Source: Aphrocallistes beatrix
Lineage: Eukaryota > Porifera > Hexactinellida > Sceptrulophora > Aphrocallistidae
Length of the DNA stretch: 64,000 nucleotides
Direction: 5' to 3'
Assembly (NCBI GenBank): GCA_963281255.1
Contig: OY725495.1
Coordinates: 1,488,001 to 1,552,000 of the forward strand
The first letter of the stretch is position 1. Each line of letters starts with the position of its first letter. Shown here one piece after another: positions 11,909-53,293 of this stretch. The notes under the pieces are model-generated. The model saw only the letters and a list, made by a program, of their open reading frames with translations, did no database searches and was not told where the DNA came from. The position numbers and the translations under genes were made by a program.

Positions 11909-11980
11909 GCATATGAATACATCTGACAAGTGCCGTGCTCTATCTTCAATGGCTGACATTCTCACTTATCAAAATTTAAG
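11909..11980 (+). CDS. HTT: Huntingtin, exon corresponding to vertebrate exon 2
   Basis: A 72-bp open segment with acceptor TTCCTTTAG and donor AAG|GTAGGC. It reads DKCRALSSMADILTYQNL, which aligns without gaps to the end of human exon 2 (DRVNHCLTICENIVAQSVR); identity is low but the helical pattern is kept. The phases fit: one base completes a codon from exon 1, and two bases carry into the exon at 18944, as in vertebrate HTT. Exon 1, with any glutamine tract, was not found upstream; it may be outside the window or too short to recognise. Support comes mainly from phase and from the downstream exons. Confidence 0.6.
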
Positions 11981-12028
11981 GTAGGCTAATAATTATGAAG
12001 AATAAGTTTGATGTTACTACTATAATTA

Positions 12029-12791
12029 CCCGGTGAGGCATAAGTTCTACACCAAGCTTCATTAGACATAAAATTTCTTATACTCAAACAATCTCAGTTA
12101 TTATGGTCTTTAGAGATTGTAATTCGAATATTCTCAATGATTTTAAAAGAGTTTTCGAGTCTAAGACCTGGAACTGTGTTTTGTGGAGAAAAAATATGTC
12201 CTGGCAGGCAGCAAAGAACGAGAATCAGGGCCCACTGCTTTTCAAATTATCTTTCTAGAGTCTTCACTTCAAATTCTAGGACAAATTAGCTCTCACATTT
12301 TCCTCGAACACTCTAAATTTGTAGAAATATAGGATGTTTAGATCAGTGTATATTGAGAACCATTTGGATCAGATTTTTTGGTGATGCAAAAAAAGTGCTA
12401 TTTTGGGTGATTTTGCAAAATGTACCTAATTTGAACTCGTGAAATAATAACTTTATCTCGTTTCTGATAATGAATTCAATGGATTTGTGAAATATTTCCA
12501 TGGTCAATGAAAGGTATCTCGTGCTAAATCGTCATGGAACGTCGATTATAGAGACATTTGTTACAGAAGCAGTGGGCCCTGATTCTCGTTTATCGCTGCC
12601 TGCCAGGACACATTTTTCTCTACAAAACTCAACATACAAAACACAGTTCCAGGTCTTACACTCGAAAAGTCTTTTAAAATCATTGAGTATATTCGAATTA
12701 CAATCTCTAAAGACCATAATAACTGAGATTGTTTGAGTATAAGAAATTTTATGCCTAATGAAGCTTGGTGCAGAACGTATGCCTCACCCTG
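12029..12791. mobile_element. Long-TIR MITE of the CAGGGTG family, copy 1
   Basis: The ends CCCGGTGAGGCATAAGTTCT and its near complement CATGCCTCACCCTG flank arms of about 200 bp containing GTTATTATGGTCTTTAGAGA and TAATTCGAATATTCTCAAT. The interior contains CATGGAACGTCGATTATAGA, shared with the other copies. Four further copies and fragments lie in this window, mostly flanked by TA, which suggests Tc1/mariner mobilisation. ORFs across it are shadows. Confidence 0.8.
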
Positions 12792-12794
12792 TAG

Positions 12795-13153
12795 AAAAAT
12801 CCCAAAATGCTTCCAAGGGTTATTAATGAGTGCAGATTCACGATTAACTTGCACCCAGATAGAGGAAGAACTTGGCCTTTCATTGCCTTCATTGAAATGA
12901 TTTTACACTCATATATGACTTGCATGTAAGTTTTAAAGTCCGCTGGGTCTCACATCTATTAACATTTGTTCAAAATGAGAAACGGATGGGCTTTTGTCGA
13001 TCTATGCTTAAGAAATTCGACGAAGGGCATTCAAAACGTGTTTATGTCATCTGCACTGTGAATAATCATGAATTTATCAATATGATCCTAAAACTAAACA
13101 CCAATCCTGCATCTGTGTCTATAAATCAAAAAAATTCCGATAGGTTAGATTGA
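12795..13153 (+). pseudogene. Mariner transposase relic (N-terminal half)
   Basis: One frame reads DSRLTCTQIEEELGLSLPS, matching the second helix-turn-helix of mariner transposases (DPRxTxxQIxEELGI). The next frame (12920-13153) reads RWVSHLLTFVQNEKR and MLKKFDEGHSKRVYVICT, the linker that precedes the first catalytic GDETW motif, which is missing here. The MITE at 12029-12791 directly abuts it. Frameshifted and truncated, with no terminal repeats visible. Confidence 0.7.
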
Positions 13154-13226
13154 TTAATCCAGGCACCCACAGGGTGACTCTGTGGACACATAGTGTCCGC
13201 AAGCCGCGCAGTGCAAGCAAGCGATG
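13150..13226 (+). repeat. GC-rich terminal hairpin module, solo copy
   Basis: The sequence runs from GATTGATTAATCCAGG through GTGGACACATAGTGTCCGC to GCAGTGCAAGCAAGCG, the same succession of short palindromes that ends the Helitron-like elements. No matching body lies upstream, so this is a solo or truncated 3' end. Confidence 0.65.
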
Positions 13227-13273
13227 TTTTTAATTAAAATTGCATCAACATTATATTCGGATCAAAACGCACC

Positions 13274-13513
13274 TCAACCAAAGATCAAGAATCGTAGGGC
13301 AAGTACTATCCCTTTACAATGCATCACACCGCTCCCCACACTGAGAAAGATATGATAATGAACGCGAGTAGCAGAATAAAATACAAAAGAAATTCCCATT
13401 GTCCATACATACTCAGTAACATTTCCAAAGAAAAATACACAAAATGACAGAAGAACAAAACCGGCACTGATACTAACAGCTAAAAATGTAATATACATCC
13501 ACATTAACTTCAT
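13274..13513 (-). CDS. Small hydrophobic ORF, antisense within an HTT intron
   Basis: A 79-residue frame on the minus strand with an ATG at 13513. Residues 5-30 (YITFLAVSISAGFVLLSFCV) and about 36-48 are strongly hydrophobic, so a membrane protein or signal anchor is plausible. Upstream on the same strand lie a TATA-like TATAAATAG near 13600 and a GAAAGT/ACTTTC direct repeat near 13550-13595. I do not recognise the family. It could be a first exon, since the frame ends without a domain, or chance. The promoter-like layout is the main support. Confidence 0.3.
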   Translation of the reverse strand: MKLMWMYITFLAVSISAGFVLLSFCVFFFGNVTEYVWTMGISFVFYSATRVHYHIFLSVGSGVMHCKGIVLALRFLIFG

Positions 13514-18943: not shown

Positions 18944-19073
18944 CTCGTTGCGTTTGACTTCACATTACCCGAATCTCCTTGCAACAGTTTTTGAGCGATT
19001 TTATAAGATGTGCAGTGATGACGATGATAATGTCAAAAATTCTTCAGAAGAGGCGCTTAATAAACTCATTAAG
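18944..19073 (+). CDS. HTT: Huntingtin, exon corresponding to vertebrate exon 3
   Basis: A 130-bp exon between acceptor TATATTTATAG and donor AAG|GTGATG. It encodes LLATVFERFYKMCSDDDDNV and then ALNKLIK. These align without gaps to human [20 protein letters not shown] and CLNKVIK in the first HEAT-like helices of huntingtin. It ends on a codon boundary at LIK, where human exon 3 also ends (VIK). It is 9 bp longer than the 121 bp I recall for human, at the 5' end. Huntingtin is a large cytosolic HEAT-repeat scaffold in vesicle transport, forming a complex with HAP40. The exon lies between introns of 6963 and 5389 bp. Confidence 0.9.
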
Positions 19074-23131: not shown

Positions 23132-23136
23132 ATATA

Positions 23137-24462: not shown

Positions 24463-24522
24463 GAGATGCTACCTTTTGACGGGAATAAAGTATTTTTTGA
24501 AATCCATAAAGAATTAAGGAAA
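24463..24522 (+). CDS. HTT: Huntingtin, exon corresponding to vertebrate exon 4
   Basis: Exactly 60 bp between acceptor TTTACTTTAG and a strong donor AAA|GTGAGT, in phase 0 at both sides. It encodes EMLPFDGNKVFFEIHKELRK, aligning residue for residue with human [20 protein letters not shown] (conserved L..E..KE..K). Human exon 4 is also 60 bp by my recollection. It is too short to appear as an ORF; it was found by expecting the continuation of the exon at 18944. The intron that follows is the largest here, 14835 bp. Confidence 0.92.
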
Positions 24523-24884
24523 GTGAGTGATTTTCTAATTTTAACCTAACTCAATGCATGTAAATGAATGATAATGCTAGTATGCTACTCTAAACTTGAA
24601 TTCTAATTGTTTGATGGAATGTTTCCAACGCAATTATAGCAATACAAAATTATGGAAATTGATCAAACGAGATTATCATGATTACTATATGACATTAATT
24701 ATGTAGATTTCATATATTCATTTGGTGCCTAACGAGTCACTTAATGGAGCTGCACTGTCAGTCTGTTTAACACCTCACCCAGATTGTGAACCCCCTGAGA
24801 AGATATTCGCATGGATTAAGGGAGTATATAAATCAATAAACTTTTAAAATTTTCGATATATATATATATCTACATATCCATCAA

Positions 24885-27425
24885 CCGATTTGTCTGAACT
24901 TTGCTGTGCGACAAGCCACTGATATGTCTTTACTTTTGTGAAAATTTCAGATCAATCGGTCATGTGTTTTTGACTTATGACGTAACAAATAACTCGAAAA
25001 ATATTCATCAAACTCTTTCATAAATTGCTATACTCATGTTTTACAATGGAGAATATGAAAACCATGAGTAAATTAAGTTTTGAGTTCCTTTTCTTTGTGA
25101 AAACTGGAGCTGAAACTGAAACCAACTCCGGAAGCAAACTGGAGCTATGACGTAACAAAAATGTATATTTTGGAAACAGTTTTATTTTTTAGTATTTTAA
25201 TGTCTATAGTCATAATTCATTGTATAAAAAAATTCATTTGGTTTCCATATGTTCTCTTTGAGTTATTCACATTTTTGTACGCTTTCTATATATAACTCAA
25301 AATTTTATCCCTTTTGTAAAAATATAAAATTGACTTGACAACTCTCAATTTCTACCATTTTGAAAATGCTTTTATGTCTTCCTCTATAATATCACTCATT
25401 CATACAACATTCTGCAATTGCTATGTGCAGTAGGAATTATAAGTCTGTTGTATATTTGACCGCAAACAGACTAAACAAAACAACAGTGCAATGTTGTTGT
25501 TGTTATGTAATAGGAATGCAATAAATGTCACTAATGAGTTGAACAGTTAATTTAGGAGGGCTAATATTTGGTGAACAATCCGATATTTAGTCCGACTATA
25601 GCACTCTGTACATAAGGCCTCCCATCTAAATCTCAAAAATGGACCAGGGATGCGGTCGAAGATGGTTGAACAAATACCTGATCTGCATAAAATCATCAAC
25701 GACGCAGAATAGAGCTTCGGAATGTATTACCAACATATATAAATATGGCGGCGAAGTATTCATATCCGTTGTTAAAATTTTGATTAGTCATCATATGATT
25801 GCACAATATGTTATATATTGAACAAATTTAGTGATTTTCAGAGATTGTTTAAGGACACTTCTAAGCGGTTGTTTTATTATAGTTTTTTCGTATAGAACCG
25901 AAATGTGAATGAGTTGATACGAAATTTTTTATGGAATGTTGCTACATTCTAGCGTTGCTATGGAAACGCATCTTGATCAGTTGAGGTCATATCTTTAAAA
26001 CCGCAATAACTAGCATTTAAATTTTATTTTATTTGATAGCCAATAGACTACTTCCTATTTAGCGATTATATAATTTCTACGGCTAAATTCAAATGGTTTA
26101 CGAATTATTAGAGAAATTACCAAATCTGACCAAAGTGATAAATTGTCTGATAACTCGTAAACCATTGAATTTAGACACAAAAATTATATAATCGCTAAAT
26201 AAGAAGTACTCTATTGGCTTTCAAATAAGATCAAATTTGAATGCTAGTTATTGCCGTTTTATAGATATGACCTCAACTGATCAAGATGCGTTTCCATAGC
26301 AACGCTGGAATGTAGCAACATCCCATAAAATTTTTTGCATCAACTCATTCACAGTTCGGTTCTATACGAAAAAACTATAATAAAACAACCGCTTAGAAGT
26401 GCCCTTAAACATGCTCTGAAAATCACTAAATTTGTTCTAAATATAACAAATTGTGCAATCATATGATGACTAATCGAAATTTTAACAACGGATATGAATA
26501 CTTTGGCACCATATTTATATATGATATTAGGCAAATCAGGTATTTGTTCAACCATCTTCGACCGCATCCCTGGTCCATTTTTGAGATTTAGATGGGAGGC
26601 CTTATGTACAGAGTGCTATGGTCGGGCTAAATATAAGATTGTTCACCAAATATTAGTCCTCCTAAATTAACTGTTCAACTCATTAGTGACATTTATTGCA
26701 TTCCTATTACATAGCAACAACAACATTGCACTGTTGTTTTGTTTAGTCTGTCTGCGGTCAAATATACAACAGACTTATAATTCCTACTCCACATATCAAT
26801 TGCAGAATGTTGTATGAATGAGTGATATTATAGAGGAAGACATAAAAGCATTTTCAAAATGGTAGAAATTGAGGGTTGTCAGGTCAATTTTATATTTTTA
26901 TAAAAGGGATAAAATTTTGAGTTATATATAGAAAGCGTACAAAAATGTGAATAACTCAAAGAGAACATATGGAAACCAAATGAATTTTTTTATACAATGA
27001 ATTATGACTATAGACATTAAAATACTAAAAAATAAAACTGTTTCCAAAATATTCATTTTTGTTACGTCATAGTTCCAGTTTGCTTCCGGAGTTGGTTTCA
27101 GTTTCAGTTCCAGTTTTCACAAAGAAAAGGAACTCAAAACTTAATTTACTCATGGTTTTCATATTCTCCATATGTAAAACATGAGTATTGCAATTTATGA
27201 AAGAGTTTGATGAATATTTTTCGAGTTATTCGAGTTTAATATGGGATGGTGATTTTACCATTGTGAAAATCCTTGGTCAAAAAGCAAAAAATCAAAATTT
27301 TGTGACGTCATAAGTCAAAAACCACATGACCGATTGATCCGAAAATTTTACAAATGTAAAGACATATCAGTGGCTTGTCGCTCAGCAAATTTCAGACAAA
27401 TCGGTTGATGGGGGTGAAATAACTG
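24885..27425. mobile_element. 2.5-kb near-perfect palindrome (foldback element)
   Basis: The arms 24885-26105 and 26125-27425 are inverted copies through almost their whole length; the turn lies near 26115. Landmarks in both arms: CATCAACCGATTTGTCTGAA (outer), GCTTCCGGAGTTGGTTTC, CCAGGGATGCGGTCGAAGATGG, and TAGCGATTATATAAT next to the centre. The right arm has extra bases near 27240-27310. The repeated ORFs are shadows. A related 1-kb palindrome lies at 46.09-47.13 kb. The outer ends lie in TA repeats, so no target duplication can be defined. Confidence 0.85.
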
Positions 27426-27464
27426 GTTGATTTGACATGGAGTTCCCCATATATATATATATAT

Positions 27465-27600
27465 ACACACTATGCGGACAAAAATATTTCAAAACTTGAT
27501 TCTTCCACATACAAATAATACTAAATCTGATTTCAGATTCGAATTCTGCACATTCGAATTAGTCATTGTTGAACATAACTATTAAATTACTCAATTCAAT
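27465..27600 (+). mobile_element. Tc1-type MITE end fragment
   Basis: Has CACTATGCGGACAAAAATAT followed by ACATACAAATAATACTAAAT and TTCGAATTCTGCACATTCG, matching (inverted) the fragment ending at 43765 and the style of the element at 17683. Only one end is present. Confidence 0.55.
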
Positions 27601-27859
27601 GAACAATCTTATCATCTGTTGGGTAGGCCTGCGGGATTAGAAGGAAGCCTGTGGAGGCTAGCAGCTGCTCCTAAGATGGCAAGTAGGTATGCAGAAGTGT
27701 GGCTGGGTGTAGTTAAATAATGGGTAGGCATGGCGGCCATGGCCGTCTCACTTTTGAGGAGCTTCGACTGTACTGTATATATATATACCGTAGAACTCGG
27801 ATAAGAAGTAGCCCTTCAAAAAGGAATTATTTTGTTTGTACTACATAGAAATATTTAAT

Positions 27860-28020
27860 ATCAAAACACTGAGATTTTTTTTTTTCTGTTTGTCCGAATT
27901 GATCGAAGAATTGGCAATTCGTAGAGATATGAAAATTGGCATGTGGGTGTCAAATGATGAATCTACGCTTAAGTTCGAGGATCAAAGCGAAATTTTCACA
28001 CCTCTGTTAAAAAAACGGAA
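27860..28020 (+). mobile_element. Helitron-like 5' end, second subtype
   Basis: It has a T-run, TGTTTGTCCGAATTGATCGA, then ATGAAAATTGGCATGTGGGT. The same order appears inverted at 56785-56960, and in shorter form (ACGAATTGATTGAAGAAAC ... TTGGCATGTGGGAG) in the 490-bp family. This suggests related 5' regions on different elements. Confidence 0.5.
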
Positions 28021-28155
28021 AAACAATTTTTCGCACCTTTTCTACATACAATGCTATATAGTATTTAGTATGGTTTTACTCTATCAATAGAACTCATTTA
28101 CGACACTATTGTAGGGTGTCATTGTTATTAATACTTCAAAGCAATAACATATATA

Positions 28156-28928
28156 CAGGGTGACCCATAAGTTCTGTTACAAGCTTCATTAGGTATAAAA
28201 TTTCTTGTACTCAAACGATCTTAGTTATTATGGTCCTTAGAGATTGTAATTCGAATATCCTCAATGATTTTAAAAGATTTTTCGATTCTATGACTTAGAA
28301 ATGTGTTTTGTATGGTGAGTTTTGAGAGAAAAAAAATGTGTCCTGGACCGCAGCGAAAATCGTGAATCAGGCCCCACTGCTTCTGTAAAAAATGTCTTCA
28401 TAATCGATGTCCCATGACGATTTAGCACCAGGTACCTTTCTTCGCCATAAAAAGATTTCATAAATCCACTGAATTCGTTATCAGAAACGAGAAAAAGTTA
28501 TTCAGTCGCAGTTCAAATTAGGTACATTTTGCAAAATTCCCCAAAATGGCACTTTTTTTCACATCACAGAAAAATATGATCCAAATAGTCTTCAAAATGC
28601 ACTGATCTGAACATCTTATATCTCTACAAATTTAGAGTTCGCGAGGGAAATGTGTGAGCTAATTTTTCCTAGAATTTGAAGACTCTGGGAAGATAACTTG
28701 AAAAGCAGTGGGGCCTGATTCACGATTTTCGCTGCGGTCCAGGACACATTTTTTTTTCTCAAAACTCACCATACAAAACACATTTCTAAGTCATAGAATC
28801 GAAAAATCTTTTAAAATCATTAAGGATATTCGAATTACAATCTCTAAGGACCATAATAACTAAGATCGTTTGAGTATAAGAAATTTTATACCTAATGAAG
28901 CTTGTAACAGAACTTATGGGTCACCCTG
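28156..28928. mobile_element. Long-TIR MITE of the CAGGGTG family, best copy
   Basis: It runs from CAGGGTGACCCATAAGTTCT to its complement at the right end, flanked by TA. The inverted arms are about 220 bp and nearly identical (GTTACAAGCTTCATTAGGTA; TTATGGTCCTTAGAGATTGT). The roughly 330-bp middle contains CATGACGATTTAGCACCAGG. 773 bp, non-coding. Confidence 0.9.
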
Positions 28929-29029
28929 TAGATGTCTCAATTATATTTTAGTGTCTAGCAATAAAAATGTTCTATACATATTTTACACCATTATATGCAT
29001 ATTTTAACACTATTTGAAGAATTTTAAAA

Positions 29030-29545
29030 ATTCGGTGGTGACAATGGTTGACATATGTTTTTTAGAGGTGTAGATTTCAAATATCATATTTTTAGATCTG
29101 TCCGATAAATTTTTTGTTAACTTTTGTTTACAATATATACATGAAGTATACAAATCTCAAAAATATGCTAGAAACTAGCTTTCAACTGTTAGCATAGACT
29201 TTTTATCGATCTCGAATATTATCTTATCAGGTCTATATGATAAATTAATTATTTACTTTTTTGTACAGTAGATACATAAAGTATGCAAATCTCACAAATA
29301 TTCTAGCAATTTGCTTTCAACGGTTCACACGGGGTTTTCAGGGGTGTAGATTTATAATATCATATTTTTGAGTAAATTTGATAATTGTTGTTTACTTTTG
29401 TTTACAACAGATGCATAAAGTAAACCAATCTCAAAATCTGCTGGATCCAAGCTTTCAAAGGTTGACATGGGGTTTTGGGGTGTAGAGTTCGAATATTGTA
29501 TTTTCGAATCTATGTGATTAATTACACAGGCCAACAAAAAAATAT
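29030..29545. repeat. Tandem repeat, unit about 135-138 bp
   Basis: Four or so diverged units, each with TTTGTTTACAAYAGATACATAAAGT-type words, a CTAGAAACTAGCTTTCAAC core and TGACATGGGGTTTT-GGGGTGTAGA. Core spacings are about 135 and 138 bp. Related units occur at 31690-31850, 35640-35960, 59380-59660 and 60320-60520, the last two attached to the GC-rich terminal module. Confidence 0.75.
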
Positions 29546-29758
29546 TTTTGTCTCTTGGCTCAGATTGTTGGAGCGTTTGGGGGTATCTCGGGGTTGCTGA
29601 ATCCGAAAATACTATTAGTTTTGCTGAATTGGCTCTACTTTTCTAGATATTACACAACCTTAAATTTTGAGATAATTTACAAATATATGCGATTTGTAGG
29701 TTTATTACAACATTTACATCTATTTGTTCACTCTATTTCCAGCATATTAGAACCTTTC

Positions 29759-31465
29759 ATGGATTCAAAGCGCATTAGACGTTGTTGCCTCAATGATCCT
29801 GATGTCTTTTGCTATATTTGTGGTGAATATATGACAAAGAAACATCGTTTTAATGTTAGAGATGTCACCAAAAAAGCTTATCAGGCTTACTTTGGTATGA
29901 AGTTAGGCGATCAGAATAAGTCATGGAGCCCTCACAAAGTGTGCAAGTATTGCACAGAAACCCTCCGCTTGTGGACACAAGGAAAAGCCAAATCCATGAA
30001 GTTTGGGATACCAATGGTTTGGCGAGAGCCCAAGAACCATCACGATGACTGTTACTTCTGCATGGTTAACATGTCTGGATGGAACCGAATGAAAAAGAAT
30101 TCGTGGCAATATCCTGACATAGATTCTGCAAGACGGCCAATTCCACACTGCAGCGAAATTCAGGTGCCTGTTTTTACATCTTTGCCTGATCTAGTTCCTG
30201 ATACTGCGTTTACTCAGGCTATTGATGAATCATCGGACAGCACTTACAGCAGCAATAGCTGTATTGAGTCCTTACAGATAAGTAAAGCGGAGCCTTTCAC
30301 ACAGGGGCAACTCAACGACTTAGTGAGAGACTTAGGCTTGTCAAAAGATGCTTCAGAGATCCTGGCTTCCCGTCTCAGTGAACACCATGTTCTCCACAGT
30401 GAAGCTATGATAACTTATTACCGACGCAGAGACGAAGAACTTATCCGCTATTTCAGTAAAGAAGGCGATTTCGTGTTTTGTAATAACATCCCAGGACTTC
30501 TCTCAGCGATGGGACTGTCCCAATACAATCCGAATGAGTGGCGTTTATTTATCGACAGCTCTAAACGGAGTTTAAAGTGTGTGTTGCTGCATAATGGTAA
30601 CAAGTTTGCCTGTGTTCCGATCGGCCATTCAGTAATCTTGAAAGAGCACTACGCAACTGTAAAGATGGTCCTACAAAAGCTGTGTTATGATGAACATAAC
30701 TGGATCGCGTGTGTGGACTTGAAAATGGTCAACATTCTGTTAGGACAGCAAAGTGGTTACATTAAATACCCATGCTTTCTTTGTTTGTGGGACAGCAGAG
30801 CGGATGAGGTGCACTGGGAAAAGAAGAACTGGCCCGTTCGTCAAGAGCTCGCCGTGGGGGAATAGAATATCGTTAACGAGCCACTAGTTAGCCGTGACCG
30901 TATCATCCTACCCCCACTACATATCAAGTTGGGACTGATGAAACAATTCGTAAAGGCATTGAACAAAGATGGTACCTGTTTCAGCTACCTCTGCTCAGTA
31001 TATCCTGCTCTGAGTAGCGAAAAACTTAAGGCAGGAATTTTTGATGGGCCACAAATCAGAAAACTGATAAAAGATGAAGATTTCGCCTCACACATGACTG
31101 GGGTAGAGGCTGCCGCGTGGTATTCCTTTGTCGATGTTGTAAAGGGATTTCTAGGCAACACCAAAGTAGCTAACTACCAGAATCTGGTCGAAGGCATGCT
31201 CAAGAACTTCCACAGTCTGGGAACCAGAATGAGCATAAAACTTCATTACCTCTATAGCCATTTAGAGAGATTCCCTGAAAATCTTGGTGATTTAAGCGAA
31301 GAACAGGGCGAGCGATTCCACCAAGACATCAGGACTATGGAGGAACGGTACCAAGGACGATGGGACGCTCACATGTTGTCAGATTACTGCTGGAGCCTTA
31401 TGCGTGATTGCGCCCAGGAACCTCACAAGAGGAAATCGTATAAGAGAACGTTCGTTCATGATTGA
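29759..31465 (+). pseudogene. Repeated-family zinc-binding protein, 568 codons with one internal TAG
   Basis: Translation from the ATG at 29759 stays in one frame to 31465 apart from a TAG at 30863-30865. The N-terminus has cysteine pairs (DVFCYICGEY, HKVCKYCTETL, DDCYFCMVNMSGW) suggesting zinc fingers. The middle has EWRLFIDSSKRSLKCVLLHN, VDLKMVNILLGQQSG and YPCFLCLWDSR. After the stop it continues PPLHIKLGLMKQFVKAL, GIFDGPQIRKLIK and EEQGERFHQDIRTMEERYQG. From memory this is a widespread, multicopy uncharacterised arthropod/cnidarian family, probably mobile. A lysine or glutamate codon becoming TAG is enough to explain the break. No transposase motif or terminal repeats were identified. It lies in the largest HTT intron. 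Confidence 0.75.
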
Positions 31466-31904
31466 TAAGTATTCAGATCATATTATATCTCAAATTATCT
31501 GCTTATTACGTACGTTCAATTCTAGTTATAAGGTAATACATACATACTATATACTATCAGTGAACACGATTCACGGATACTAAAAAACACATAATTTTAC
31601 AATATCACAAAAAGTAGAGCCAATTGACCAGAACTAGTGCCATTTTCGAACTCAGTGACCCCGATATACCCTAGAAATAGTCTCAACTTATCAGCCAAGA
31701 AAATGTTGTTGGCCAGTGTTATTTGCTTACTTTCGTTTGCAATAGATACATATAGTAAACAATTTCTAAAAACAGGCTAGAAACTATCTTCAAACGATTG
31801 ACATGGGGTTTTTAGGGGTGTAGTAGATTTCGAATTCTTTTTATTATGGAGCTAACTTTCTTCTTCACTTCTGAATTCATGATTCACCGTATATGGAGGA
31901 TGTT

Positions 31905-32195
31905 TTTGTTGACGCAGGGAAACTTTCCGCTTTTGTATAATTAGAAATTTCAGTTTTTCGACCATAATTCAGCCATTTTAAGTGATAGAAGGCTGAAATT
32001 TAATAGAATGTGTATGTTCATATATCACACATATGATGCAACTATCAACACAAAACGATGACTCATCACTGTTATCACGTCATCATTATGCAGTGATTTT
32101 TCGTGCGATATCGATTATAACAGTAGGACCGACGTATCTAGAGATGTTATCTCCCTTATAATTAACCAATGTGACTCCAGGCGCCACTTACTTCC
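31905..32195 (+). mobile_element. Helitron-like element fragment
   Basis: Carries the family words ATAATTAGAAATTTCAGTTT, GTGATAGAAGGCTGAAATTT, CGATGACTCATCACTG and CCTTATAATTAACCAATGTGA, then stops within the terminal module (CCAGGCGCC). The 5' end is missing. Confidence 0.65.
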
Positions 32196-32224
32196 TATTA
32201 GGTAATAATACTATTTAAACTACA

Positions 32225-32400
32225 ATTTAAACCTAAGTTGACTAATTTATCAATTAATGAATAATTCGAATAATTAAAATCAAAAGAAAATATCATGAAT
32301 TATATGAATGCTTTTTCGAATAATTCATATTTCCATGAATTATGAATTATTCGAATTATTCATTAATTTATTAATTTGTCAACTTGACTATAGAGTTAGT
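32225..32400. repeat. AT-rich foldback repeat of the TAAGTTGACTAATT type
   Basis: TTTAAACCTAAGTTGACTAA at the left is mirrored by TTTGTCAACTTGACTATAG at the right, with GAATAATTC words between. It resembles the MITE at 9186-9437. Confidence 0.45.
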
Positions 32401-32406
32401 TATGCT

Positions 32407-32470
32407 GTATTTTATACTGTATGTCCCATAATTATTGGCAGTGATTTCAAATTTGCCTCTATATTTTCCT
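32407..32470 (+). mobile_element. Solo end of the CAGTATGTCCCATAATTATTGG Tc1 family
   Basis: ACTGTATGTCCCATAATTAT followed by TGGCAGTGATTTCAAATT matches the ends of the element at 49707-51614. No matching second end lies nearby. Confidence 0.5.
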
Positions 32471-32599
32471 GGGGCTACTTTGATGATATACTTGTAGTAT
32501 ACTGTATGTCATGAAATTGATGATCCCTTGAATTTAACTTTATTACTTTTAACTAACTTACAAACTCATATAATTTACTTTCCTATGTATCCTTCTTCT

Positions 32600-33647
32600 A
32601 ATTGTAAACATGTCTTAACTATATTTAGCATTCTTGCTATTAAAGCTTCCAGGGTATCAGTTGATGTCTGAGACCAGTCCTCCTTGACGTTTTTATCAGG
32701 GTTTCTTCATTGGTTGCAGATTCCAGTTCTTGGAGCTTCTCCTTCACGATAGCTCAGAGATTTTCAATAGGCGACAAATCAGGACTATTGCCAGGTCATC
32801 TACCTTTGATCCAGAATGAAGGAATGTTACGTTGCAACCAATTTTGGGCCAGGCGGGAGTGATGAGCCGGGGCCCCATCTTGCTGGAAAACGGCTACAGA
32901 CATGTCTGGAAGCATTTTCCTTTTCAGAATAGAGCCATTTTCTTTCTTTCTGTTGAAGTCAGAATAAAGATACTTTTCCAGTATCTCTTCTACATCATAT
33001 TTCCCAGTTACTACTACCATTTGTCCTTTGGGAATTACATGAAGTTTCCTCAATGCTCGGTAGCTCATCATTCCCCAAACCTGTATTTTCAGAGGATGCT
33101 TCAAATATTCATTTGAATTCACATCTTCCCTCTTGGAAGCCCAGATTCGGTCTGTCTGCTTGTTTGGGAGAGAAAATAACTGAAATGGGGACTCATCTGA
33201 AAATAAAACAGCTTTCCACTCCTCTGCAGTCCAGTTTTTTCTCTCTTTACAAAGTTTTATCGGAATTTCCTTCTGTTTGAGGGTCAACCTGGGCACTGTC
33301 TGGGGTTTGTAGCAATTGAGTTTTAGATTTCCGCGCAACTACGTCCTAATTGTCTCATGGGAAACCTTTGGTACATGTTTCGATAATCTATTTGCTCATT
33401 CTCTGCATGATTGTCTTCTTTTCCCCTTGCTTTTCGAAATTTTAATTTTTTCCACTCTGGTCAGCTTCTTTTTTCTGCCACGACCGTTGCGATTCGCCAA
33501 ACTTTTCCCCTCTCTGTGCTGCCGCCACCATATTTTTATTGTGGCAATTCCAACATCCAACGAATCAGCCACCTCTGTTTGCGACATTCCAGCAGATAAT
33601 TGTCCAATAGCATGATTCCGGGTAGCCAAAGAGTGCTCTTTCACCAT
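32600..33647 (-). pseudogene. Tc1/mariner DD37E-type transposase with in-frame stops
   Basis: It starts at ATG 33647: helix-turn-helix QTEVADSLDVGIATIKIWW, then a GRGRKKK hook, and in the same frame to VLFSDESPFQLFSLPNKQTD (first D), VAVFQQDGAPAHHSRLAQNW (second D) and NSPDLSPIENL (E). Thirty-seven residues lie between the second D and the E, as in the ITmD37E group described in mosquitoes. Four stops break it (after SCRE, after TIRT, after IKGR, and after IENL); two of these are TGA where tryptophan would be expected. The C-terminus after 32760 is decayed. It is the closest relative here of the transposase at 7058-8091. Confidence 0.85.
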
Positions 33648-33650
33648 TTA

Positions 33651-34353
33651 CTTAGGGCGTTCAATATGTTCCAGGCCCAACTTTATATGTCAAAAAGTAA
33701 CAAAGACAAAGTATTTTCAATTCGTTTAATGAATTCGTTGCAGGATTATGCTTCGACTGGTATGTTGGTTGCTGTGATTATTAATATAATTACTATGGTT
33801 AGCACACACGATTATAGACCCGGTTTACGGTCCTTATAAACATTTCAATTTTGCCATTGAAAAGACTGGAAAACAATTTGTATGGATCAAATTCCTCAAA
33901 ATTGGTAAATAATATCGTTGAAATGTGAAATAATCAAGAAGGCATGGAGAAGATGCAAACGGGAGGTGTTCAGTTGAATATTTTGTGATAAAAAGATGTT
34001 ATACTAATTATGGTGGATTTTTTCCAATTTTTAGCTACTTAAAGTGGGACAAAAGTGTCAGTGAATTGCAAAAAAAAACATTATTCCCCCAGCTTAAAAT
34101 TAGAAGAGTTCAAAGAAGTCAATCTCTATGTTATTTGATTTGCAGAATTCAATGGAGAGATTAGTTTTAATCTAAGTTTGCTCAGAACTGAAATACAAAT
34201 ATTAAGCTAAAACTCTCCATTATCACAGTAAATCAAATTGCCAGTAGAAAGATAACCCTCTAACGAATAGAAAAAAATAATTTCAAATACACATTGTTTC
34301 AGTTGCCTTCCGAATTATAAAGTTGGGCCTGGAACATATTGAACGCCCTAAGT
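33651..34353. mobile_element. Mariner-type MITE, CTTAGGGCGTTC ends
   Basis: Inverted ends CTTAGGGCGTTCAATATGTT and AACATATTGAACGCCCTAAG with TA on both sides; 703 bp; no transposase. The first dozen bases match those of the mariner at 57545 (CTTAGGGCATTC). Its edge lies three bases upstream of the ATG of the DD37E relic, so it may have inserted there. Confidence 0.85.
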
Positions 34354-34639
34354 ATAACATCAAATCTCTAACTAAAAACAGATTTTTTTGCAACATTTCT
34401 CTAGTGATTCTTGTTGCGATTGTAGTGTAGGAAAATTTTATATTCCATTTTATAGATTCAAGTTAATGGTTCGATAACGAAATTGAGTTAAGATTGTTAT
34501 ATTGGAAAAATAATTGCAAAAATAAAAAAAATTGAAAGGGATCATCAATTTCTTGACATACTGTATGCTAATGTATAAGTAAAGTGAAGCAAAAGGAAAA
34601 TTTAATCTAAAACTTTGTTGAAAACAGGCACGATTCGCT

Positions 34640-35310
34640 TGATTGTGCTGCGTGGCTAGCGGACACTTTATGTCCACCGGAGGCGCCCTTTGGGCGCCTG
34701 GGCTCACATTGATTAATTATAAGTGAGATAATATCTCTAAATACGTCAGTCTTAGTGATATTATAATCAATATCACTCAAAAAAACACGAAATTTGTCAA
34801 TTTTTGAAATTTTTGAAGCGTAATAATGACATCGTAACAGAGTGATAAGTCATCACTTTTTATGATAGTTGAATCATATTTGAGGTATATAAATACAGTA
34901 CACCCTCGATAGTCCGAACCTCGCCAATCCGAACCCTCGCTAATTCGAACCCAAAATATAATTTTATTCGCCTCTATGCTATGAATAAACGTTTAGAAAC
35001 TTAAGTCTATCAATAAGATTGAGAAACCGTTAAATAAGCAATACTAGCGAAATAATGTCCATAATATTCTAACAATACAAATTTATTATAATTAATACCC
35101 TATTGAATTAGTGTTATTTCACTAATCGGAACAAATTTACCAATCCGATTCATTTTTTCGAACACAAGAACAGAGCTGTTCGGATTAGCGAAGGCGTCTG
35201 TATACACATTCTATTAAAATTTCAGCCTTCTATCACCTAAAATGGCTGAGTTATGGTCGAAAAACTAAAGAAATTTCTAATTATATAAAAGGTGACAATC
35301 GTGTTATTAA
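34640..35310 (-). mobile_element. Helitron-like element, minus orientation, split by a pogo-like MITE
   Basis: The terminal module (GCTAGCGGACACTTTATGTCC, GGCGCCCTTTGGGCGCC) lies at 34640-34712. The body follows to 34895 and resumes at 35201 with CACATTCTATTAAAATTTCA. The interruption is the element at 34896-35200. The 5' end is lost near 35310. Confidence 0.7.
34896..35200. mobile_element. Pogo/Tigger-like MITE
   Basis: The ends CAGTACACCCTCGATAGTCC and GGATTAGCGAAGGCGTCTG are inverted, flanked by TA. The pattern CAGTNNNCCTCGNNANTCCGAAC is typical of pogo-type elements. 305 bp, non-coding. It is nested in a Helitron-like copy. Confidence 0.8.
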
Positions 35311-35650
35311 CTGTCGCACAGATATCCTAGGAATTGACGTCAGGATATTTGATATCCTCCTCTTGTCGTTTGGTAAAATTTTCTTCGAGCAACCCGTACC
35401 CTGTCAGTGATCGAGACCTTTACCCTTTTTTATTAGCGCAAGAACCCGAAAAGCCGTCCTCTCTTGGACATGATTCCTGGAGGAAAAAATATCCTTGACA
35501 TTGGTAATTACAGCATTCTATTGAGTCTGGCCATAGATCAAATAACAAATTAGAAAATAGAGGTGTAAATATGTGTCTTAAAATAGGAAAATATTGAAAG
35601 TTATGCAGCGCTGATATCGAATATTTATAATCACAATCGTTAAGGGGCGT
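35310..35650 (-). pseudogene. Tc1-like transposase relic, N-terminal fragment
   Basis: The complement of this segment parallels 49860-50220: TTATTTGATCTATGGCC, CTGGAATTACCAATGTCAAG and CTCTTGTCGTTTGGT words match the 5' part of the Tc1 gene there. It is a decayed second copy, lacking the catalytic region. Confidence 0.6.
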
Positions 35651-35960
35651 ATTAAGTATGCTTCTAGTACATACTCAGTTTAATTATTTATTTACTTACA
35701 ATTGCTACAGAAGGTAAGAAAACCTCAAAAAGATGCTAGAGACTAATTTTCAAATGTTGTTTTGTGTTTTTTTTCTTTCTAAATTTCGAATATATTATTT
35801 TTTACTCGATGATAAATTATTTGTTTACTTGTTTACAATGAATAAAGTATGTAAATTTTTAATATTTTTTATGAATAACATATGCAAATTTTTAATATTT
35901 AATGGAAACTCGCTTTCAACCATTGTCCTTTTTATTATGCATGCATATTCTAAATATCAT
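35640..35960. repeat. Diverged units of the 135-bp repeat
   Basis: AGATGCTAGAGACTAATTTTC and AACTCGCTTTCAACCATTG are spaced as in the array at 29030. Strongly diverged. Confidence 0.4.
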
Positions 35961-36085
35961 ATTTTCTATCTTATACAGTCAACTCCGCTCAATCGGGACA
36001 ACCGCTTTATTTGGGAAAAACTCCAACAACAGAATGTTTATATACATATACACTAATACTAAAATTCATAGGTTAATTTGGGAAC

Positions 36086-36845
36086 AAAGCGACGCGGCTG
36101 GTGGACACTTTGTTCTGCTGGAGACGCCCTTTGGACTCCTGGGTCCACATTGATTAATTATAAAGTAGTTAACATCTCTAAATCATAGGCCTCGGAAATG
36201 GACCCACTGGCCCTTTGTGCCACCCGGCCCGAAGGCTCCGGGTTCGGCCCAATCGATTCCGGGGCCGCTACATTCACGGCATAAATAAATATCACACTCA
36301 CAATTCACTAACATAACTAAAACTCTATAGAAATCGACTATCCTTTCTGCTTTCTCCTGTCGTCCGTCATGATGTCAGTTGCTATGTTTAGTGGATACAG
36401 TAGTTAAACTGCATGCTACACGGTTCTAGGACTTTGGGAATGTATCGGGTAAGCTTGTACCCAGCCAGATAGGCCCTCTGGGCCTATCCGGCCCATAACC
36501 CAATGCCGGGGAGAGCCGGGCAACCCCTAAGGCCGCCCGGCCCATGCCGGGTGGCCGGGTGGGTCCGACGCCTATGCTCTAAATACTTCTGTCTTACTGT
36601 GTATAATTGTTATCACTCGAAGAATCACCAAATTTGTCAATTTTTAAATTTTGGTGCGTAATGATGACGTCATAACGGAATGATGAGTCATCATTTTTCG
36701 ATGAAGGTTGTATCATTTGTGAAGTATATTAATATCACATTTTTTCTTAAAACTTCAGCTTTCTATGATAGCACCTAAATGACTGAGTTATAGGCGAAAA
36801 ACTGAAATTTGTAATAATAAAAAGGTCACAATGACGTCTTAAGAG
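36086..36845 (-). mobile_element. Helitron-like element, minus orientation, split by a GC-rich element
   Basis: The degraded terminal module (GCTGGTGGACACTTTGTTC) and CACATTGATTAATTATAA lie at 36086-36183. The body continues at 36577 (TACTTCTGTCTTACTG) through GATGAGTCATCATTTTTCGA to about 36835. The break is an insertion with an 8-bp duplication. Confidence 0.7.
36184..36576. mobile_element. GC-rich 393-bp element with perfect 8-bp target duplication
   Basis: CTCTAAAT at 36176-36183 is repeated exactly at 36577-36584. The ends CATAGGCCTCGGA and TCCGACGCCTATG are inverted. Subterminal GCCACCCGGCCCG words are mirrored near the right end. The length and 8-bp duplication fit a hAT-type MITE, although the CATAGG ends are unusual. 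The GC content is far above that of the neighbourhood. No ORF. Confidence 0.85.
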
Positions 36846-37105
36846 ATTTCAGTTTTTCGACTATTATTCAGCCATTTTTAGTGATAGAAGGCTAAAATTT
36901 TAATATAATTTGCATATTACTATATCCTCAAATATGATGCGAATCTCATCACAAAATGGTTACTCATCACTCTATAATGACGTCATCACGGTTCGAAACT
37001 TATGATCATCCAATTTCAACCCAGGCGCCCAAAGGGCACCCCCAAGAGACACAAAATGCCCGCCTGCAACTCAGCGCAAACAAACGATGTGCATTTGTGC
37101 AATAT
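36846..37105 (+). mobile_element. Helitron-like element, 3' part
   Basis: Runs from GAGATTTCAGTTTTTCGACT through GGTTACTCATCACTCTATAA to a diverged terminal module (AGGCGCCCAAAGGGCACC). The 5' half is missing. It lies head to head with the copy ending at 36845. Confidence 0.65.
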
Positions 37106-37109
37106 AAGT

Positions 37110-39350
37110 ATCAATGCATGAATTGATTTTTCATTGTCATATTTTATTACTATATCATGACCTCTTCATTATGTTTATTAAATTTAGAATTAAATGATTT
37201 ATTGTTGTTTATGTCACTAATGAGTTTTGGAGATCTACTGAGCATCTTATAATATTCTGATTTCGAGTTTATAGCTAGGTATAGAATAATCCAGATTGGT
37301 TCGTGGATATCGTACTTTACCCAATTTCTCGATTAACATAATTAGTAGTCACCCTACAGTTTATTGCTTCCTTATGTTTCATATTGTCATCGTATCCGCG
37401 CTTGTTTACTTGCAAATTCTGTATCAAGATGCATAACATTGTATAAAGCATTACCTGCGATAGTTCTGCGTATATCTATTTCTGTGAACATCACGACACA
37501 GCGATAATGTTTCTACTAGTTTTCGTTTTTGTTGATTGACCTTATTTTATTCAAAAAGGGCATCTATTTCAACCAAATAGGTATCATTATATCAGTATCC
37601 AAGTGTTCTGTGACCATGCATTTTTTTGATACCGTTGTTAAGTTTTGATAAACCATTGAATGCACTTTTAGAATTTTGAAAAGCCTTTGGAGATCAAAGA
37701 TAGAACAAGGGAACCCTAATTTATACTCCATTAATGTGTCGTAAGATAATATTGGCAACCATACTTCTGCATAACATTCGTATCAACTATGGCATCTAGA
37801 CTGATGATGAAATAATGCATACTCCATCCGACCACCAAACCTAATTAACTATACCTCGGATCCATCAGAAAATGTCTTAGTATTGTTAGTAAGAGAGGAT
37901 TATATTTGAATATTTTATTAAATTGTATTATTTGTATGAACATTGGTTATCATTTAAAGTTGGATGCATAGTACTCGTTGCATAGATCAGAATTGCTCTG
38001 GAAGTGTATGGTTTTAACTTATTCAAGTTGATTCGACACATTAATTATAATTATTGTGCCGAATCAAATTGAACAATATTTAAGAATATAATGTATACTT
38101 AGTAGCAGTTATTTTCTACTCCTAATTAATCGATTAAGTTATACTGAATTCTACCCTATTAGTGGACTAGAACAGCTTGCATTTTTTAGTGTTTAGGATA
38201 TTTGGGTTTTGGTTTAAAGTTGGAGGGGTAGTGCTCCTTACATAGGTCCGAGGTGCTTTGAAGTTTTTTTATTTAACTTCTGATCTAGAAAAGTAGTATT
38301 AAATGTGAATTGTTCATAATTTTCATTCAAACATTTGGAGTATTGTAGTGTCGTAGATCATCCTATTTCATGATAGCCACATAAGAATATATTTAGCGGA
38401 ATTTGCGGATTGTGCCATGTAGAGAATCGCTATATGTTTTTAACCTTAAATGCCCCCTTGGCTTAATAACTTTGACTCCAATTATTGCCAAAATACTCAA
38501 CCTCGAATCCTTGATTGCACCCTAATTCTAAGTGTATTTAAGAATCAGTACTATATCAGAATATCTCTTTACTCATTAAGTCCTCCTTCCTCTACTGCAA
38601 TTTATCCTCTACAAGATGACTTTTTTCAATTTTAAAAAAAATAAGTTTACGGTAGTTACCATTCGAATGAGAATTAAATTTATCCAAAACTCACACTTTT
38701 TGATTTTGAAGAATCATGACTGCCTAAAGGGCATTTTAATAATTTGAAGCCAGTCATTTTCATTTTGCAATTGAAGAAGCTTCTTTTTAATGTTGCATTT
38801 TTTGCTATATGAGTACCTTTTGATTTATTCTGCCATCCATAATTCAAGATTGGGAATTTTGTTCAAAACGTAAATTCAAAGTAATCTATTTTAGTTAAAA
38901 ATTAATTCTAATGGCTGCTTTGTCATGGTTTTTGTGTTAAATGCTTATTTCTACTCATTCTCATTCTCGTCTGAGAGTAAGCTTCTTTTGCGTTTTTTTC
39001 ACTTCTAACCTTGGTTTACTTATACTTTAATTATCTCTTTAAAACTACAATGTTCCCTTTTGTCCTCAGAAATTTTAATCTTGGGTTATTAGTGAAAATG
39101 TTTTATTTTAAAGATGATTTAATTAATATATTATGAATTTTTCTCTCCATAGCAACATTTTCTTTAGCTTTATGTACTATATATCGTAATCCTGTGTGAC
39201 TTTTGTGAACATTAAAATTTCACCAATTCTCCACAAATATTTATAATATAATTATTTATATACTTTTACTAAAGTATTGTCTCTGAATATTTTCTATCTA
39301 TCAAAGTTAAAATATTCAATAATCCCATTATACATTATTCAATTTCATTC
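37110..39350. other. HTT intron DNA, no recognisable gene
   Basis: No ORF with a domain, no terminal repeats and no RNA gene recognised in this stretch. A GAATCAA-type inverted word near 38030-38065 (TTGATTCGACACATTAATTA) is a short hairpin only. Confidence 0.5.
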
Positions 39351-39357
39351 TCTATAG

Positions 39358-39437
39358 AATGGTAAGATGCGTTCATTACGTGCTGCATTACGAAGATATT
39401 CTGAAATTGCTCAATCTCTTCAGCTTCAGTTCCTAAG
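39358..39437 (+). CDS. HTT: Huntingtin, exon corresponding to vertebrate exon 5
   Basis: Exactly 80 bp between acceptor TCTCTATAG and donor AAG|GTAATC. It encodes NGKMRSLRAALRRYSEIAQ, almost identical in pattern to human NGAPRSLRAALWRFAELAH; this is the strongest single match in the window (RSLRAAL conserved). It begins in phase 0 and leaves two bases (AG) that combine with the A at 45256 to make arginine. Human exon 5 is 80 bp by recollection, with the same phase. The segment encodes a HEAT-repeat helix pair. Confidence 0.95.
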
Positions 39438-45255: not shown

Positions 45256-45322
45256 ACCTTATGCAAAAGATTTAGACGTTATTCTTGTCAGAATCTCCAA
45301 TAGGGATGAAGAAATAATTCAG
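45256..45322 (+). CDS. HTT: Huntingtin, exon matching the first half of vertebrate exon 6
   Basis: 67 bp between acceptor TTATTTTAG and donor CAG|GTGATA. After the split arginine it reads PYAKDLDVILVRISNRDEEI, aligning with human [20 protein letters not shown]. Human exon 6 (139 bp by recollection) continues with a helix through a point near ASFGNF; here a donor interrupts it at IIQ, a codon boundary. An extra intron therefore exists in this lineage. The remaining roughly 22-24 residues should lie between here and 53152. Confidence 0.85.
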
Positions 45323-47731: not shown

Positions 47732-47931
47732 NNNNNNNNNNNNNNNNNNNNNNNNNNNNNNNNNNNNNNNNNNNNNNNNNNNNNNNNNNNNNNNNNNNNN
47801 NNNNNNNNNNNNNNNNNNNNNNNNNNNNNNNNNNNNNNNNNNNNNNNNNNNNNNNNNNNNNNNNNNNNNNNNNNNNNNNNNNNNNNNNNNNNNNNNNNNN
47901 NNNNNNNNNNNNNNNNNNNNNNNNNNNNNNN
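47732..47931. other. Assembly gap (200 N)
   Basis: A run of exactly 200 N, probably a fixed-size gap of unknown true length. It lies in the region where part of the missing HTT exon 6 could be. The reported frames crossing it are meaningless. Confidence 0.99.
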
Positions 47932-48064
47932 TGATTATTTTGAACGTTATGATTTACTATTATATATTATAGTCATAATTGAATTGACACTAGACAGACA
48001 ATTCCAAAAAACCGTATTTTGCACATTTTTGTTCATTTTATTCCAAGGTATATGATATGAGGTC

Positions 48065-48720: not shown

Positions 48721-49039
48721 GTGAGTGAATTGTTTACTGCATAGAATTGTTAGAACATTCCAGATTCGTAAAAAGATCAAGTAAAATATTAAAAATGAAT
48801 TTGGGAAATGAGAACGAACCCCTTTGGGATTGGGGGATTATCCCTGGGGACGCATCCGCTACCCCAGTGTCCCTCTTCGTGCCGCCACTTCTTGAAGATG
48901 TTGATTGTATCCACTTCAAGTGAAAAAGGCCTTGAAACGACGGACATATCGAATTGCAGAAAATCAAATCTGCCAAACTCTCTGAGAATTCGAAATGCAG
49001 ATCTTGTAGCTTAGAAGCATAGTTTTGATTTTAATAGAT

Positions 49040-49647: not shown

Positions 49648-49956
49648 TATATATATACATCTTACTATTAAAACTCGATTAATGTTTGTGATATATACGA
49701 TGTATGCAGTATGTCCCATAATTATTGGTAGTACATCGAATTTTAAATTTTAATTGTTACTCAACCACTTTTTGACACACCAAATGTTTAATTCGTATTC
49801 TTAAACTGAGTATGGAAAAGAAGTATATTTTATACGCCCTTTAATTATTGTGATTAGAAATATTTGGTATCAGCGCTGCATAACTTTTAATATTTTTCTA
49901 TATTTGGACACATATTTACACCTTTATTTTCTGATCAACCCATTGTTATTTGATCT

Positions 49957-50925: not shown

Positions 50926-50989
50926 AGTATTGATTATTATCAAAAAACTTTAGATATAATTAATCATTTTGATTCACTTTACTTATATA

Positions 50990-51480
50990 CAAGCGCGCTT
51001 TGCATGCTTGCGCTGCGCGGCTGGCGGACACTTCGTGTCCGCCGGAGGCTCCCTTCGGTCGCCTGGAGGTGACATTGGTTAATTATAAGGGAGATATCAT
51101 CTCTAAATATGTCCATCTTAGATTTAAAATCGATTTCACGCGAAAAAACAAGTTATCAATTTTTAACATTTTGATGCGTAATAATGACGTCATAACAAAG
51201 TGATGAGTCATCATATTTGGATGAGAGTTGTACCATATGTGAAATATGTTAGTATACAGATTCTATTAAAATTTCAGCCTTCTATCTCCTATAATGGCTG
51301 AGTTATGCCCGAAAACTGTGTTGCTTAACTTTTAAAAATGTGACAATGACGTCATAATTCCATGATGAGTCGACATTTTCGTCTGAGCTCAGAACTTACT
51401 GGAACCATAGCCAAAATACTCCCACATGCCAAAAATCAGCATTCTACGCCCGGCAGTTTCTTCAATCAATTCGTTACAGA
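50990..51480 (-). mobile_element. Helitron-like element, full copy
   Basis: On the minus strand it starts TCTGTAACGAATTGATTGAA (51480) and ends AGCGCGCTTG (50990), lying between A and T. It contains the complete hairpin module with GCGGACACTTCGTGTCCGC. Inserted in the Tc1-like element at 49707-51614. Confidence 0.85.
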
Positions 51481-51636
51481 TATATATATATATATATAAA
51501 TAAATATACATTAATCGAGTTTTAATAGTAAGGATTAACATATAAATCATCAAGGTAGTCCCTGTGAAATATAGTAGCAATTTAAATCACTGCTAATAAT
51601 TTTGGGACATACTGTTTATATACGTATATATATATA

Positions 51637-52124
51637 TCTGTAACGAATTGATTGAAGAAACTGCCAGGCACAGAAAGCTGATTTGTGGCATGTGGGAGTC
51701 TTTTGGCTATGGCTCCAGTAAGTTCTGAGCTCAGACGAAAATGTCGATTCATCATGGATTATACGTCATTGTCACCTTTTTTATAATTAGAAATTTCAGT
51801 TTTTTGACCATAACTCAGCCATGTTAAGTGATAGAAGGCTGAAATTTTAAGAGAATGTGCATATTAATATACCTCACAAATTATGCAAATACCGTCAAAA
51901 AGTGATGACTCATCACTGTTATGAAGTCATCATTACGCATCAAAATTTCTAAATTGTTAAATTTTTTATTTTTCGTGCGACATCGTTTATAGCAGTAAGA
52001 CAGACGTATTTAGCGATGTTATCACCCTTCAATTAATCAATGTTACTCCAGGTGCCCACACCGCTCCTCGGGCGGACACAAATTGTCCGCTAGCCGCACA
52101 GCGCAAGCAAGTGTAGCGCGCTTG
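51637..52124 (+). mobile_element. Helitron-like element, full copy
   Basis: It begins TCTGTAACGAATTGATTGAA and ends AGCGCGCTTG before T. It contains GATGACTCATCACTG and the module with CGGACACAAATTGTCCG. It lies just outside the right end of the Tc1-like element. Any frames across it are by-products. Confidence 0.85.
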
Positions 52125-52429
52125 TACATAAATTAACATTGATCGAGTTTTTATATCAACCATATGGTTAATCTGTTCCCTTGTCCCTTGTTCGCTATTC
52201 CTAGTGACTGTTATGGCAAGCTCCACTGTTTTTATCAAATTTTGTTTTATTATGGTTAACTTTTGCTGTTAGAAATGCTGTTTTTAGCAAAAGATTTTCA
52301 CTCAGTTATTTTCATATCATCGAATGGTGAATCTTACTGTTACTGCTTGATTATTTCCAAAAGTGCTCGAGTTTGTTCGGTTAGTAGTTCTCGAAGGTAT
52401 CCATGTTTCCTAAATTATCATCATATATA

Positions 52430-53004
52430 CTTAGGGCGGTCAGAAAGTTCTAATCAGTGTTATCATACACTCTTATTGTACCTTATTAGATTGATATTGA
52501 AGCTTGAATTTACTTCTTAACACATTCACAAGTGATACCAATTTACAGAATCAAAATCTAGAGAAAACTCTTTGTATACCACGTCCTATATATTGTGTCG
52601 CTTGAGCCACCGTGTAAAATTATGGCCACAAACCACCCGTTCACCACTCGTCCTTCCCTAAAAAGTAGGCTCCATTATCAGATATTTGAATCTGAGAGAG
52701 TATCATTCCCATCAACTTCCTAAGATTGATTTGTATTTGAGCATTCGTATCGCTTAGTAATGCCCTTGTAATGTCGTTACTCTTGAGGGAAGGTCGGGTG
52801 GTTTGTGGCCATAATTTTACACGGTGGCTCAAGCGACACAATATATAGGACGTGGTATACAAAGAGTTTTCTCTAGATTTTGATTCTGTAAATTGGTATC
52901 ACTTGTGATTGTGTTAAGAAGTAAATTCAAGCTTCAATATCGATCCAATAAGGTACAATAAGAGTATATGATAGCACTGATTAGAACTTTCTGACCGCCC
53001 GAAG
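52430..53004. mobile_element. Mariner-type MITE with about 200-bp inverted arms
   Basis: CTTAGGGCGGTCAGAAAGTT and AACTTTCTGACCGCCCGAAG are inverted ends with TA outside. The arms share ATTTTGATTCTGTAAATTGG and ATATAGGACGTGGTATACA. 575 bp, non-coding. The CTTAGGGC start links it to the mariner at 57545. Confidence 0.88.
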
Positions 53005-53151
53005 TAATTGATTTTTAAATTTTTGTGACAACACAATTCGATATATTATCACCATTATTTATGACCTGTTTATTAATTCACCCATAAAAAAGAGTAATAA
53101 ATTCAATTTTAATTGAAATTCATACTTATTGATCTTAATTTTTCGATTTAG

Positions 53152-53293
53152 AATTTACTACATAATTGGACAAACCTTTTGAAAAGTTCATCTACAACTA
53201 CCAGACGAATGGCTTCATCATTGATTGTTTCATTAGTAACTAATTTGAAGAATGACTCGCAATATATGTCCATTTTACTTCAGATAGTCCTAG
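53152..53293 (+). CDS. HTT: Huntingtin, exon corresponding to vertebrate exon 7
   Basis: Exactly 142 bp between acceptor TTTTTCGATTTAG and donor TAG|GTATAT. It encodes NLLHNWTNLLKSSSTTTRR and then MSILLQIVL, aligning with human VLLKAFIANLKSSSPTIRR and YSWLLNVLL (KSSSxTxRR conserved). It begins on a codon boundary and leaves one base (G), as I recall for the 142-bp human exon 7. The open frame beyond 53293 is intron read-through. The next exon should finish the glycine codon of the LLG-type motif. Confidence 0.92.

Follow-up and report, generated by a model that had tools for sequence, protein, structure and literature searches.

Vertebrate-placed 5' introns, enlarged and rich in transposons, in a probable huntingtin gene of a glass sponge

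How old is the division of the Huntington's disease gene into its small 5' exons? The question is raised by a 64,000-bp window (C9:1488001-1552000) of contig C9 in the 100.5-Mb, 28-contig assembly of Aphrocallistes beatrix, where short exons scattered over tens of kilobases resemble the N-terminal part of huntingtin. They very likely form the 5' part of a probably functional glass sponge huntingtin gene, with introns placed as in vertebrates and apparently enlarged, largely by transposons. The contig was read whole from the window start to C9:1752000 (264 kb, with a single run of N).

Huntingtin exons in the window

The features below are numbered from the first base of the window.

11909..11980, + strand: candidate huntingtin exon 2, 72 bp; best-scoring splice sites within 30 bp and compatible phase; unproven
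18944..19073, + strand: huntingtin exon 3, 130 bp; PDB and Pfam match of the spliced peptide, candidate ranking and splice signal
24463..24522, + strand: huntingtin exon 4, 60 bp; shares 4 of 20 residues with human, the weakest match among the confident exons
24523..39357, + strand: largest intron between exons found in the window, 14,835 bp, of which 37% recurs in the 264 kb
39358..39437, + strand: huntingtin exon 5, 80 bp; shares 13 of 26 residues with human
45256..45322, + strand: huntingtin exon 6a, 67 bp, corresponding to the first half of human exon 6; shares 10 of 22 residues with it
47732..47931, no strand: run of 200 N inside the 6a-7 intron, at the expected place of exon 6b
53152..53293, + strand: huntingtin exon 7, 142 bp; shares 17 of 47 residues with human

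Exons 3, 4, 5, 6a and 7 have AG and GT at all borders, are open, and share one continuous frame; exon 6a ends in phase 0, and its junction with exon 7 preserves the frame. For these five, the original prediction of six ordered GT-AG huntingtin exons is correct to the base, whereas its first, at 11909-11980, lacks sequence support. The 67-bp exon is likewise identified correctly, but its limitation to the first half of human exon 6 had escaped notice. The remark that no confident exon lies in a long open reading frame (ORF) holds for all but exon 3, which sits in an ORF of 125 amino acids.

The candidate set for each exon comprised all AG...GT open segments of matching length class and phase in the 264 kb. 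The proposed exon ranked first each time, among 670 candidates for exon 3, 175 for exon 4, 141 for exon 5, 209 for exon 6a, and 50 for exon 7, with the narrowest lead for exon 4 (28 versus 22). Splice sites (9 acceptors and 7 donors) were compared, using generic weights that reflect the splice-site consensus, with all competing AG or GT dinucleotides up to 30 bp away. For all acceptors of exons 3 to 9 and all donors of exons 3 to 8, with exon 8 in its longer form, the chosen site scored best; the only site not ranked first was the acceptor of the shorter exon 8 alternative.

Identity of the spliced peptide

Splicing the five exons with the candidate exon 2 in front yields a peptide of 183 residues. 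A search of PDB with this peptide retrieves human huntingtin chains as its nine best matches (E values from 3.4e-18 to 3.7e-18), and the next protein follows at 0.7; with exons 8 and 9 added, the huntingtin match improves to 9.1e-29. The in silico splicing and profile search that had been proposed as a check give the Pfam family Htt_N-HEAT_1 at 89.1 bits (4.8e-25; cut-off, 31.2), and no further family in the Pfam scan of the spliced peptide rises above its cut-off. Another HEAT protein is ruled out by the next PDB E value and by the lack of any other Pfam family above cut-off. Taken singly, the exons are weak evidence: exon 3 alone matches Vac14_Fab1_bd slightly better than Htt_N-HEAT_1, both below their own cut-offs. 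The huntingtin finding is nevertheless largely real.

A possible second huntingtin copy on contig C16 (35.9 bits) is ruled out, as the frame reads as what we take to be SF3B1 and also exceeds the HEAT_EZ cut-off.

Gene beyond the window

Further parts of the gene follow on the same contig and strand.

53294-88001 from the window start, + strand: huntingtin intron 7, 34.7 kb, given by the distance between exons 7 and 8
C9:1576002-1576189, + strand: huntingtin exon 8, 188 bp (182 with a second acceptor), with borders at the presumed human places
C9:1596173, + strand: start of huntingtin exon 9, at a presumed human border
C9:1612945-1613604, + strand: central huntingtin exon, human residues ~697-883; PDB match at 1.9e-14, 222-codon open frame
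C9 at ~1681, 1710, 1730 and 1733 kb, + strand: further huntingtin stretches, in order
C9 at ~1827 and 1878 kb, + strand: C-terminal HEAT matches (Htt_C-HEAT), the last at C9:1878056

Intron 8 measures 20.0 kb, and the seven measured introns range from 5.4 to 34.7 kb. A profile search yields four Htt_N-HEAT and two Htt_C-HEAT matches (one of the latter two above cut-off), with the profile position increasing along C9 on one strand. Exon 3 through the last match cover 371,113 bp; the later huntingtin exons being collinear and all on one strand, the gene is at least 371 kb long. Nothing clearly marking its 3' end was seen within 10 kb past the last match. The partner protein HAP40 was sought by way of the SNAP family; one locus, on C15, matched strongly and others weakly, and none was identified as HAP40.

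Comparison with other huntingtin genes

The lengths that we take for human huntingtin are 84 bp for exon 2 and 121, 60, 80, 139, 142, 179, and 205 bp for exons 3 to 9. Sponge exons 4, 5, and 7, at exactly 60, 80, and 142 bp, equal these values and agree in phase, as the original prediction had stated, also from presumed human lengths. Introns 3/4 to 8/9, six in succession, match the presumed human positions and phases. Exon 3 exceeds its human counterpart by 9 bp, the extra bases lying at the exon start in the alignment, and of human exon 6, which is split here, only the first 67 bases have a counterpart. The presumed list agrees with PMC1636649 where that source gives numbers, i.e., for exons 10 and 12.

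The central open frame contains 582 bp of huntingtin match, and the largest vertebrate huntingtin exon is 341-392 bp (PMC1636649). Judged from these borders, the vertebrate-like structure is preserved at the 5' end but not throughout. The earlier claim that the exon-intron structure has been kept therefore applies to the six 5' introns; it does not extend to the split exon 6 or to the central exon of at least 582 bp, which lacks some vertebrate introns.

Among chordates, 39 huntingtin introns are common to vertebrates and Ciona, where sharing is lowest in the 5' part (PMC1636649), and 51 are common to human and amphioxus (PMC2206037). The sponge gene resembles the huntingtin genes of vertebrates, amphioxus, and Ciona in its ordered HEAT domains, GT-AG borders, and six 5' introns at the presumed human positions and phases. 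It differs from them in the split exon 6, in a central exon whose length exceeds that of every vertebrate huntingtin exon, and in its span of at least 371 kb, versus 33 kb in Ciona, more than 50 kb in amphioxus, and 80-180 kb in vertebrates (PMC2206037). Huntingtin as such is not new to sponges: an orthologue has been reported from the demosponge Amphimedon (PMC7725122). In Dictyostelium, the gene has four exons (PMC8004120). A literature search turned up no comparison of huntingtin intron positions in non-chordate animals and, for huntingtin together with Hexactinellida, just work on spindle orientation. Since introns common to sponges and vertebrates are not rare, the sharing itself is of limited surprise.

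Host genome

The mitochondrial contig C28 (17,996 bp, of which ~15 kb were read, with genes named by eye) carries atp9, and its recognised genes all lie on the same strand and include the block atp6-cox3-nad2-nad5-nad1-cob. AGA occurs at serine sites and ATA at isoleucine sites, and TGG is absent from cox1, cox2, nad5, nad2, and the part of cob that was read. In cox3 (within C28:5980-15000), the frame changes at a TGG, codon 140. The presence of atp9, AGR read as serine, UGG avoidance, and this gene block are marks of glass sponge mitochondria, and TGG at cox3 codon 140 is the place of programmed frameshifting reported in Aphrocallistes vastus (PMC2267718). By these marks, the contig is that of a glass sponge (Hexactinellida).

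Glass sponge introns are short, with means of 341 bp in the O. minuta genome (PMC10280926) and 516 bp on one A. vastus scaffold (PMC10282587). In the present assembly, six of the 78 matches to the myosin head cover it completely, each within a single frame (1,224-2,398 codons), and all five FAT-domain matches lie within frames of 1,538-3,789 codons. The ratio of span to coding length has a median of 1.25 and a maximum of 8.8 at 18 of 19 myosin loci (grouped by eye, leaving out one partial single-frame locus on C8), versus ~47 for huntingtin, whose coding length was taken from human residues. Some myosin genes are intron-rich too; huntingtin stands alone in intron size only. Contig C9 holds 5.0% of the bases and, among the matches listed, 7 of 425 kinase, WD40, and RRM matches (4/130, 0/150, and 3/145, respectively), where one gene may yield several matches. 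Such matches are unevenly spread, being few on C9 and many on C1, C7, and C11.

Alternative explanations

Several observations weigh against a functional gene of vertebrate-like 5' structure. The human exon borders are presumed ones, and intron 2/3 is not counted as shared because it lies 9 bp off the human place, although in equal phase. Some vertebrate introns are absent from the central part, as the exon there exceeds the largest vertebrate one. In the PDB search with the six-exon peptide, exon 7 aligns with 4.7 bits only; joined to exons 8 and 9, it aligns with 42.9 bits. The candidate exon 2 has a global score of -13 against human exon 2 and is outscored by 145 of the 172 segments upstream of exon 3; it is proposed from splice signal and phase only, since the Htt_N-HEAT_1 score rises to 89.8 bits when it is left out. 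Exon 6b (24 codons) was not found in 45323-53151 with several candidate lengths and an ungapped scan; it may sit in the N gap, be too diverged, or be lost. Exon 1 was not found either: no ATG frame, and none with the first 17 residues and the Q tract, stood out upstream of exon 2 or in the 10 kb before the window. A trans-spliced leader, which 4% of A. vastus long reads are reported to carry (PMC10282587), might stand in its place. Htt_bridge has no match in six frames, where short exons could hide the domain. Finally, ~121 kb of the span, between 1752001 and 1878056, lie outside the sequence read.

The missing or unproven exons 1, 2, and 6b, together with introns full of transposons, are what would be expected if this were a huntingtin pseudogene in decay, with exons that as yet appear undamaged. 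That is unlikely, because the splice sites are intact, the 222-codon central frame and exons 8 and 9 are also open, and profile searches of the assembly found no other huntingtin copy. Moreover, the six exons are open over 183 codons, for which the chance at the intron stop rate is ~1.2e-5, although the exons had been chosen as open. The equal exon lengths and phases might instead reflect parallel gain or chance rather than inheritance, given that preferred sites can gain introns and that the human borders are presumed. However, six consecutive introns agree in position and phase, which is hardly expected from repeated independent gain, and such an origin is quite improbable.

Two further possibilities concern the assembly. 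Contig C9 could derive from another animal living in the sponge and be uninformative about sponges, as the glass sponge marks come from one mitochondrial contig only. This is very improbable: the mariner transposon in the window has close copies on 16 contigs, and the myosin and kinase domains of C9 lie in single frames, as on other contigs. Similarly, the 200 N between exons 6a and 7 might conceal an error that joined distant pieces and inflated the span, but the ~199 kb from exon 7 onward contain no N and carry a collinear series of huntingtin exons on one strand, beginning with 7, 8, and 9, which makes such an error highly implausible.

Implications

In a huntingtin gene of this kind, transcription of the + strand would give a pre-mRNA of at least 371 kb. 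From this, the spliceosome would produce a huntingtin mRNA by joining small exons where vertebrates join theirs, and translation would yield a HEAT-repeat scaffold protein of the usual kind. The six shared introns suggest divisions as old as animals. The introns would then have grown, largely by transposons, in a gene-poor region, as the repeat content indicates, in a genome where many other genes are intron-poor. We lean slightly towards the wider proposal that huntingtin kept at least six ancestral animal 5' introns while many genes became single-exon, and that these introns then swelled until it ranked among the largest genes in a compact genome. One idea for why they stayed is that low germline expression might have limited their loss via reverse-transcribed mRNA.

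The authors of the amphioxus study proposed that 5' exons were acquired before vertebrates, refining N-terminal function in connection with the nervous system (PMC2206037), and within chordates huntingtin gene size is reported to track genome size (PMC1636649). Both ideas are weakened as general rules, because a sponge appears to have six vertebrate 5' introns and its gene exceeds the 33-180 kb of chordates in a 100-Mb genome. The structure speaks against the amphioxus proposal in its general statement, not as regards particular 5' introns. Six consecutive vertebrate-placed introns occur here in a nerveless animal. If they are inherited, the layout of 5' introns in the Huntington's disease gene would predate the sponge-vertebrate split, the vertebrate 5' exon pattern would not be a gain made by vertebrates in connection with the nervous system, and huntingtin would be shielded from intron loss by some constraint or by its chromosomal setting. 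The gene would also depart from the relation reported for chordates, in which huntingtin genes are larger where genomes are (PMC1636649), and it offers a case in which to ask why a single gene retains and expands its introns when the genome around it is poor in them.

Transposons and repeats

Within the 264 kb, 42% of the bases are repeated, and none of the repeated bases falls in the six tested exons. The earlier statement that introns of up to 14.8 kb contain transposons holds, the largest one between exons found in the window being that of 14,835 bp. One element lies inside intron 7.

57706..58767, + strand: mariner-type transposase frame, 353 codons; Pfam Transposase_1 at 8.8e-9

This mariner has 45 matches over 16 contigs, two of them on C9, both inside the huntingtin span. 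Because many of the copies elsewhere in the genome are near full length, with 92-98% identity, its expansion was probably a recent burst. Copies are frequent on C2 and C4. Open frames of at least 200 codons number 14 in the 264 kb; in a Pfam scan that included the frame at 124945, one is the central huntingtin exon, seven are Tc1/mariner transposase, THAP, or RING frames, and six have no Pfam match.

Intron gigantism is known from Drosophila kl-3 and kl-5, which have megabase introns with satellite DNA (PMC6508621). The sponge gene shares with them small exons amid introns far above the genome norm, but its seven measured introns, of 5.4-34.7 kb, are well short of a megabase and carry DNA transposons.

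Other features of the window include the following.

7058-7939, - strand: 293-codon frame of a Tc1-like transposase, 5' of the exons
20001-24000, intron 3: stretch of higher GC content (0.415) with a strong C excess (GC skew, -0.236)
20232-20963: 243-codon frame in the GC-rich stretch of intron 3, without Pfam match
29522-31465, + strand, in the largest intron: two adjoining frames (447 and 199 codons) with a cysteine-rich start and no Pfam match, resembling a mobile element gene
32796-33338, - strand: frame resembling the Tc1-like one, without Pfam match
29114-29504 and 59393-59677: tandem arrays of 135- and 141-bp units whose consensus sequences have words in common

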